Assembly: GCA_003220055.1 (NCBI GenBank)
Contig: QHRF01000005.1
Span: 1-50,138, forward strand
Direction of reading: 5' to 3'
From: Verrucomicrobiota bacterium
GTDB lineage: Bacteria > Verrucomicrobiota > Verrucomicrobiia > Chthoniobacterales > UBA10450
DNA length: 50,138 nucleotides
The notes beneath the pieces are model-generated. The model searched no databases, was not told the origin of the DNA, and saw only the letters and a list, made by a program, of their open reading frames with translations. The position numbers and the translations under genes were made by a program. Below are positions 47,028 to 50,138 of the stretch, in pieces; the stretch's first letter is position 1, and the number at the start of each line of letters is the position of its first letter.

Positions 47028-48179
47028 TCATTTTCCCCTCTTCTTGTCCTCAATCAAATCCGCGAACTGCGAAAAGAAATAGGACGCGTCATGCGGGCCG
47101 GGCGCGGCTTCGGGATGATACTGCACGCTGAAAATCGGCAATTCCTTGTGACGCATGCCTTCGACCGTGTTGTCGTTCAAATTGATGTGGCTTACTTCGA
47201 CATTTTTCGGCAAAGACTCGGGATCGACTGCGAAACCGTGATTCTGTGCGGTGATCGCGACCTTGCCGGTACTTAAATCCTTGACTGGCTGATTGGCGCC
47301 GCGATGGCCGAACTTTAGTTTGAATGTCGTTCCACCGAACGCGAAGCCGAGGATTTGGTGGCCAAGGCAAATTCCAAAGATCGGCTTCTTGCCCATTAAA
47401 TCGGCGACCGTTTTGTGGGCGTAAGGCAGCGCCGACGGGTCTCCTGGACCATTTGAAAGAAAAATTCCGTCTGGATTGAGGGCGAGCGCCTGCTCAGCGG
47501 TTGTCGCAGCTGGAACGACCGTGACGCCAAACCCCTTCTGCCGCAGCAGTCGCAAAATATTTTGTTTGATACCGTAATCATAAGCAACGACCCGAAATCG
47601 AATTGGCGGCAATTTCGGTTTGTTGTCGCCGTTGCCATTCACGATCGACCAAGGTTCGCTTAACTTATCGCTCGGGTCCCATTGATAAATCTCCGGCGTC
47701 GAGACTTCGCGGACATAATCCATTCCAATCACGCCTTCGCCATTGAGCGCGCGTTGCACCGCTTGTTCGGTCGACATTTCCTCAGTCGTTAAACACGCCT
47801 TCATCGCGCCACGCGTCCGCAAATGCCGCGTCAGCGCGCGCGTGTCGATCCCTTGGACGCCGGGGATGTCCCATTTGCGCAAATATTCATCGAGCGACAT
47901 TTCCGAACGCCAGTTGCTCGGCGCCTCGCTCAGTTCTTCGATTACAAACCCACGGACGTGCGGCGAGCGGCTTTCCTGATCGAGCGAGTTGGTTCCGTAA
48001 TTTCCGATTAGCGGATAAGTCATGGCCACGATCTGGCCCCGATAGGAAGGATCGGTCAGTACTTCCTGATAACCGGTCATCGCGGTGTTGAAACAAATCT
48101 CGCCGACGCGCGTTCCGGTTGCGCCAAATGATTCGCCCCCGAAATATTTTCCGTCTTCGAGAGCGAGCAGGGCGCGCAT
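47028..48179 (-). CDS. carA: Carbamoyl-phosphate synthase small subunit
   Basis: 383 residues. N-terminal CarA domain ([32 protein letters not shown]) and C-terminal class I glutamine amidotransferase with Cys271 (GICLGHQ), His355 and Glu357 (YHPEAAPGP). It feeds ammonia to CarB for arginine and pyrimidine synthesis; carB is not in the window. The 5' leader (48180-48480) holds a structured RNA and a repeat. Confidence 0.95.
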
Positions 48180-48284: not shown

Positions 48285-48324
48285 GAAAAGGAAAAGGCCC
48301 GGATCGACAAGCAATCCGGGCCTT
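48285..48324 (-). terminator. Strong intrinsic terminator
   Basis: 11-bp perfect stem AAGGCCCGGAT/ATCCGGGCCTT (48294-48304 with 48314-48324), a 9-base loop, then TTTTCCTTTTC on the minus strand. It ends the structured RNA about 105 bases before the carA start. Confidence 0.88.
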
Positions 48325-48465
48325 CTGCAAAGTTTTACCCCACAGGTGCCGTTTAGGTGAATCTCCCGTTCCCTTTCGGTAAACGGCGGATGACCGTCGC
48401 TGCGGAATCTGACTTCCAATAAAGGCCTGTCATTCTCCGCACCAACCAAGCCTCCTTTATTTCGT
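48285..48465 (-). ncRNA. Structured RNA upstream of carA (leader or small RNA), class unknown
   Basis: Read on the minus strand. A hairpin pairs 48429-48441 with 48401-48413 (TGCGGAG..TGAC with GTCA..TTCCGCA, one small internal loop). Its 15-base loop contains CCTTTATT, complementary to AATAAAGG just upstream (48454-48461 with 48418-48425), giving a pseudoknot. Another stem pairs GCCGTTTA (48380-48387) with TAAACGGC (48348-48355). A third hairpin, CTGTGGGG/CTTTGCAG, and a terminator follow. No riboswitch, T-box, 6S or SRP signature could be matched. It lies between pheT and carA, so it could be a carA attenuator or an independent RNA. Confidence 0.6.
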
Positions 48466-48598
48466 CAACTATCGGTTCGGGGACGTCACCTCAATCTCGA
48501 ACATCGCAGGGTAAATTCGAAAGCCGCTGGTTGAGAGTTGAGTGGAAAGCACTGGTTTCCTTCCCAACCCTCAACGAGCGGCTTTCACTTTCAAAGAA

Positions 48599-50138
48599 CT
48601 ACTCGCGCAATTCCGCGCCGAGGTCGCGCTGCAATCGCTCGCGAATTTTCGCGTGCACCGCACTCACTTCCTCACTTGTCAGTGTGCGACTCCGATCTCG
48701 ATATGTCAATCGATATGCAAGCGACTTTCGTTCCGATCCGAGACCGGCTGCGCCTTCCCCGGCGAACAAATCGAACAGTTCCACGCGTTCGAGCAACGGC
48801 TCCTTCGGTTCTTGAATCGCTCGCAAAATTTTCGCGTGCGAAACTTCTTCCGGCACAATCATCGCAATGTCGCGCGTGATTGATGGATACCGGTCAAGCT
48901 CGCCAAACTTTTTCGCTGATTCGCCAACGACTAAAAGAAGATCGGCATGCAGCTCAGCAATGAGCACCGGACCTGGCGCACTGGATTTGGTCGCTGAAAG
49001 TTGTCCGCTAAAGCCGATCATTTGATCTCGGGACCAAATGTCGACCGCCAGCGCGAGATCAGGATATTTCGCCGGCCGAAACGACAGATCTGGAATAACG
49101 CACTCCAACGCGCCCTTGAGATCGAACAGGTCCAGACCGCGGCTCGTTTGCGATCGCCAATTCGGCGCGCGCGTAATATTTCCCCAGAGCAAAATCCCGA
49201 GATGCCGTTCTTCCTTTCCGGACGGCGGGATAAACGTGCGCCCGATTTCAAAGATGGCGACGGTCTCGGCGCCCGCGCGAACATTTCGTTCGAGCACTTC
49301 GAGCAGACCGCCGATCAAGGTTGGCCGCAGCGCGATGTGATCTTCGCTCAACGGATTGCGCAGCTCGATCGCGTTTTCGCTGAAGGCGGAGGCGCTTCTC
49401 GGAATCAATTTGGATGTGCGCGCTTCCGAAAGTCCGTGCGCAACCAGACGCGCGCGGAAGACCGATTCCAAATCGTGCGAATGATCGGCCGCGCTCGAAG
49501 GCGTGAACCGGCTTCGGTCGGTCCCCGGAACCTTGTCGACTCCGAATGCGCGAATGACCTCTTCGATAAGATCGACATCGCGCTGCAAGTCCCGCCGATG
49601 GCTCGGAATTTTCCATTTCGTCGTCCTAGCGGCGCTAGTTTTTTTCAGACCGAGCCCGGTCAGAATCTCATCGACGGTCTTCGGCTTAATCGTGATGCCG
49701 ACGACTCGATCGGCTTTTTCGTAGGTCAGCGAAACGTCAGCCGGATTCGCCGGCACTTTGCCCGCCACTCCAATTTCTTTTGCCGGAGTTCCATTCGCGA
49801 TCTCGCGAATCAGTTCGGTTGCGCGGTGCGATGCCCGCAAAACCATTTCCGGATCGACCCCGCGTTCGAAGCGATAACTCGCGTCGCTCGGTAAACTCAA
49901 ATTGCGCGCAGTGCGCCGAACGCTGGCCGGTAAAAAGTAAGCGCTCTCGAGCAGAATGTTTTTTGTGGATTCCGTCACACCGGTTTCTTCGCCGCCCATT
50001 ACTCCGGCAATTCCAACCGCGCGCTCTTGATCGGCAACGACCAGATTATCCGGCTTGAGCGAGTAAGTCTTGCCGTCGAGCGCGAGAAATTTCTCGCCGT
50101 CCCGCGCCAGCCGGACATTAATTCCATCTTTCAATTTA
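48599..50138 (-). CDS. pheT: Phenylalanine-tRNA ligase beta subunit, truncated at window end
   Basis: About 513 C-terminal residues are visible; the N-terminus lies beyond base 50138. Visible parts are the end of the B3/B4 editing domain (GIAGVMGGEETGVTE, ESAYFLPASVRRTARNL), domain B5 (about 120-200, SHRRDLQRDVDLIEEVIR), the catalytic-like core (NPLSEDHIALRPTLIGGLLE) and the C-terminal anticodon-binding domain (KFGELDRYPSITRDIAMIVP, then RLTYRDRSRTLTSEEV). It pairs with PheS to charge tRNA-Phe. Confidence 0.95.
   Translation of the reverse strand, partial: KLKDGINVRLARDGEKFLALDGKTYSLKPDNLVVADQERAVGIAGVMGGEETGVTESTKNILLESAYFLPASVRRTARNLSLPSDASYRFERGVDPEMVLRASHRATELIREIANGTPAKEIGVAGKVPANPADVSLTYEKADRVVGITIKPKTVDEILTGLGLKKTSAARTTKWKIPSHRRDLQRDVDLIEEVIRAFGVDKVPGTDRSRFTPSSAADHSHDLESVFRARLVAHGLSEARTSKLIPRSASAFSENAIELRNPLSEDHIALRPTLIGGLLEVLERNVRAGAETVAIFEIGRTFIPPSGKEERHLGILLWGNITRAPNWRSQTSRGLDLFDLKGALECVIPDLSFRPAKYPDLALAVDIWSRDQMIGFSGQLSATKSSAPGPVLIAELHADLLLVVGESAKKFGELDRYPSITRDIAMIVPEEVSHAKILRAIQEPKEPLLERVELFDLFAGEGAAGLGSERKSLAYRLTYRDRSRTLTSEEVSAVHAKIRERLQRDLGAELRE

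Follow-up and report, generated by a model that had tools for sequence, protein, structure and literature searches.

The window analysed here, a stretch of 50 138 nucleotides from a Chthoniobacterales (Verrucomicrobiota) bacterium, carries pheT and carA on its minus strand, with pheT ending at 48599 (TIGR00472) and carA starting at 48179 (TIGR01368, 506 bits). Among named genomes, its best matches lie within Chthoniobacterales/Spartobacteria, close to Candidatus Udaeobacter. The gap of about 420 bases that separates them holds, in the order of transcription, a long hairpin, an RNA that we assign below to the 6S family, and an intrinsic terminator, after which carA begins. The terminator, AAGGCCCGGAU..AUCCGGGCCUU with a T-rich tail (48286–48324, minus strand), has the 11-bp stem (48324–48294) that an initial annotation had described from the letters of the window. 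Most members of the same family keep a hairpin with a T-run even as the terminator sequence varies; in more distant families, a simple search found no equivalent terminator at many loci.

The long hairpin between pheT and the RNA (48516–48592, minus strand; −42.7 kcal/mol, z −6.7) lies outside the 6S RNA. It occurs as a single copy immediately 5′ of the 6S RNA in the host's family; none was seen upstream of the 6S RNA in other families of the order. Its loop, GGAAACCAGUG, is conserved, and a set of 24 relatives includes some compensatory changes. It is probably the 3′ end of pheT, possibly acting as a pheT terminator, here lacking a U-run, or as a processing site.

A full-length match to the 6S RNA family

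A permissive Rfam scan of the pheT–carA gap matched RF00013 (6S/SsrS RNA) at 48515–48333 on the minus strand, with 44.4 bits and an E-value of 7.6e-8. The match runs from end to end of the model (positions 1–187 of 187) and gives the RNA a full extent of ∼183 nt (48333–48515); the second-best Rfam match in the gap had an E-value of 0.28. The curated gathering score of RF00013, which is a curation threshold and not a biological feature, is 46.4 bits, 2 bits above the window copy. Because the window copy scores just below this cut-off, an Rfam scan of the window at default settings reported only a tRNA and missed the 6S RNA. Matches to mir-1202, Thr_leader, P8 and suhB were rejected, being far under their own cut-offs and overlapping plain hairpins. 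None of the leader and riboswitch models scored above chance in the gap; the best of them, Thr_leader, which has a cut-off of 55, scored 18.2 bits, largely over the terminator.

Rescanning with RF00013 put three orthologues and E. coli ssrS all above the cut-off. The initial annotation had been able to match the element to no known class, and had proposed an Rfam scan in which a strong hit would count against it. The class is RF00013, and the strong hit comes from orthologues above the gathering score. A scan of the whole source genome (80% complete) matched RF00013 once only. The start of the RNA is predicted to lie near 48515; a promoter scan upstream of the RNA gave no match to a sigma-70-type promoter.

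The conserved rod

The claim that the minus strand encodes a stably folding RNA has held: a 195-nt single-sequence fold of this strand reached −79 kcal/mol (z −4.55 versus shuffles, none of 200 being as stable), and the element is conserved at the DNA level in 134 of the 197 genomes of the order. The minimum-energy fold of the window sequence alone is a different structure from the 6S rod, and the folded segments did not contain the whole 5′ end. An alignment of 58 sequences was made with MAFFT, with no use of structure, leaving out one locus that lacks the 3′ third of the RNA (L017), one at which the contig ends (L025) and one that duplicates the window (L031). From this alignment, RNAalifold recovered the 6S rod unaided, with its closing stem, central bubble and interrupted apical stem. 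In the consensus rod, 97.0% of 2269 cells are paired and compensatory (double) changes occur at 18 of 40 pairs. Shuffled controls were 89.9% paired and sliding the partner gave at most 48%; on none of five measures did any of 500 shuffles reach the observed value.

The covariation sits in the closing stem and the apical arm. The closing (terminal) stem pairs its 5′ strand, UUACCCUGCGAUGUUCG (48498–48514, minus strand), with its 3′ strand, CGGCACCUGUGGGGUAA (48335–48351, minus strand); these are consensus helices 1 and 2, in which 99.8–100% of cells are paired and five pairs have compensatory changes. The apical (internal) arm with its terminal loop (48388–48455, minus strand; helices 6–10) has 94.7–100% of cells paired and many compensatory changes, and corresponds to the long irregular hairpin of the initial annotation. 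Helix P2 (CCCG/CGGG and CC/GG) is almost invariant, with 99.7% of cells paired, and is thus too conserved to show covariation.

The boundaries and other pairings that had been proposed fared less well. The element had been placed at 48285–48465, but the extent of the RF00013 match puts its 5′ end near 48515, and a boundary at 48465 excludes the closing stem's 5′ strand as well as the side of the bubble that holds the pRNA template. A supposed G-U-rich hairpin, CUGUGGGGU..ACUUUGCAG, is in competition with the closing stem, the 5′ partner of which fell outside the interval. A supposedly perfect 8-bp stem, GCCGUUUA/UAAACGGC, takes its 3′ strand from the closing stem; this 8-bp stem is 67.4% paired, and one G-C pair at its centre is disrupted in 48 of the 57 relatives. 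The suggested pseudoknot between hairpin loop and flank, AAUAAAGG/CCUUUAUU, is present in the window sequence, but only 67.6% of its cells are paired across the 57 distinct relatives, mostly at a conserved GG/CC end, and its middle pairs are broken in 29–36 sequences. The pseudoknot and the 8-bp stem are particular to the window sequence and its nearest kin. They probably arose because the closing stem's 5′ strand lay beyond the chosen interval, freeing the 3′ strand for other partners; folding of the single sequence goes astray in a similar way.

The central bubble and a predicted product RNA

In other bacteria, 6S RNA associates with RNA polymerase and turns it down once growth stops. In known 6S RNAs, the rod mimics an open promoter and is bound by RNA polymerase that carries the main sigma factor; copying of the 5′ side of the bubble into a product RNA (pRNA) then unwinds P2 and frees the enzyme (PMC8876501). 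The corresponding elements can be placed in the window. The 5′ strand of P2, the downstream helix by the central bubble (48474–48482, minus strand), pairs with 48365–48372 and is the predicted pRNA template; the template motif CCGAUA is the same in E. coli ssrS at the matching place and is near-invariant in relatives. In E. coli, pRNA synthesis begins at U44. The matching position here predicts a pRNA start at 48471 on the plus strand with AUCGGUUCGGGG, giving a putative product 5′-AUCGGUUCGGGGACGUC (48471–48487, plus strand).

Folding in relatives points to a short hairpin, CCGUU...AACGG (48366–48386, minus strand), on the bubble's 3′ side, and the 3′ strand of P2 forms part of it. Nearly all relatives fold a hairpin at this place, with either CCCGUU/AACGGG or CCCUUU/AAAGGG as its register. 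Owing to this alternation, covariation support for the window's own CCGUU/AACGG register was not found among them.

The element probably acts by mimicking a promoter for the housekeeping RNA polymerase, which a pRNA starting near 48471 would release; the functional steps are those that we infer by analogy. On the return of NTPs, polymerase would start near position 45 of the RNA (48471) and transcribe the bubble's 5′ side into a short pRNA, 5′-AUCGGUUCGGGG..., and this synthesis would open helix P2. The freed 3′ strand of P2 could then pair inside the bubble on its 3′ side, as the CCGUU/AACGG hairpin, and the enzyme would be released.

Distribution, neighbouring genes and comparison with known RNAs

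An order-wide search matched RF00013 in 137 of 197 genomes, as a rule with one copy per genome, and coincided in place with the DNA-level search (for example, G176:C111, G119:C47 and G091:C10). Scores at or above the cut-off were obtained in 62 of the 197, including orthologues of the pheT–carA locus; more than half of the matching genomes (75 of 137) score below it. In a sample of the phylum, 124 of 241 genomes matched, 86 of them passing the cut-off, with a top score of 100.7 bits. A search of library titles and abstracts yielded no description of 6S RNA in the host's group, which RF00013 covers. At one locus (L017, G013:C174, match 1501–1616), the 6S sequence breaks off after GGGAACGGGA and continues as terminator-like sequence, so that the 3′ third is lost, by either a deletion or an assembly error; the RF00013 search found no 6S RNA in that genome.

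The RNA lies 3′ of pheT in nearly all loci. A rival proposal is a cis-acting ligand-binding leader of carA, a riboswitch or attenuator sensing pyrimidine, arginine or glutamine. The appearance is that of many leaders, a structured RNA followed by a terminator, and carA does start here ∼155 nt beyond the 6S match, with the terminator between. Nevertheless, the entire structure matches 6S RNA, the special pairings that had been proposed are not conserved, and 21 loci, mostly from other families, have the RNA but no carA within ∼1.3–1.5 kb downstream. The genes next to the RNA in these loci are unrelated and several lie on the opposite strand: a UvrD helicase (L033) and threonyl-tRNA-synthetase-like genes (L049, L053) are opposite-strand neighbours, and an M50 peptidase (L045) and a 5′–3′ exonuclease domain (L047) are among the other downstream genes. 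At L041, the RNA stays beside pheT despite an insertion that parts it from carA. The carA-less loci refute the leader in its general form, and we consider such a role very unlikely. Of the initial suggestion of a ligand-binding leader or a stable small RNA, the second half stands; the end-to-end 6S match, the RNA's own terminator and the frequent absence of carA speak against the first. Two family members, L005 and L041, have at least ∼1 kb of extra DNA between the 6S RNA and carA, and the intervening frame at L005 gave no hit in Pfam.

A 6S-like RNA that has shifted to another target, binding the RNA polymerase core without sigma as does Ms1 of Actinobacteria, would be compatible with the sub-threshold score of the window copy, and 6S-like rods can indeed bind core instead of holoenzyme (PMC9130861). 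The full-length RF00013 match, the many relatives above the cut-off, and the conservation of the pRNA template and start motif CCGAUA in common with E. coli make this highly improbable. Palindromes are common close to gene ends, and a chance fold or a DNA repeat devoid of RNA function might have been suspected; an element that is kept in 134 of 197 genomes with covariation, and in single copy, refutes this, and we assign it a negligible chance. We also think it improbable that the pheT 3′ hairpin, 6S RNA and carA are co-transcribed in the family, the 6S RNA being partly processed from pheT read-through or partly reading through into carA; such an arrangement would link polymerase control, translation capacity and pyrimidine synthesis.

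We conclude, with a probability of about 0.97, that the element is the single-copy ssrS (6S RNA) gene of this Chthoniobacterales bacterium, on the minus strand of the pheT–carA gap and with its own terminator; a polymerase-release mechanism is what we infer for it. Membership of the family by covariance model, the conserved 6S-type rod and conservation of the RNA independently of carA are directly supported. It is a stand-alone, genuine and ordinary 6S RNA gene, notable only for its sub-threshold score and its location between pheT and carA. An apparent orphan RNA upstream of carA is thereby settled as 6S RNA, with no new mechanism. At default thresholds, Rfam scans overlook 6S RNA in many Chthoniobacterales, many being soil metagenome assemblies, and extending the RF00013 seed with sequences of the 58-sequence alignment would mend their annotation.

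Comparison with E. coli ssrS, the type of RF00013, reveals the same full-length covariance match, a length of ∼183 nt, the same succession of closing stem, central bubble and apical arm, a single copy and an own terminator, and the UGUUCG, CCGAUA and CGGCA motifs are identical at matching places. The two differ in score (139.8 bits for E. coli, 44.4 here) and in locus, the E. coli gene lying between zapA and fau. B. subtilis 6S-1 RNA has the same rod and pRNA logic, and its bubble likewise carries a short 3′-side hairpin (PMC8876501); folding suggests that the hairpin here, unlike that one, shares the 3′ strand of P2 and is closer to the E. coli release hairpin. Ms1 RNA resembles the element in its 6S-like shape and in polymerase binding, which is predicted here, but Ms1 binds core polymerase and occurs in Actinobacteria (PMC9130861). 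Amino-acid and pyrimidine leaders and riboswitches likewise place a structured RNA and a terminator 5′ of a biosynthetic gene; they differ in that no Rfam leader match rises above chance here and carA is not a fixed neighbour.
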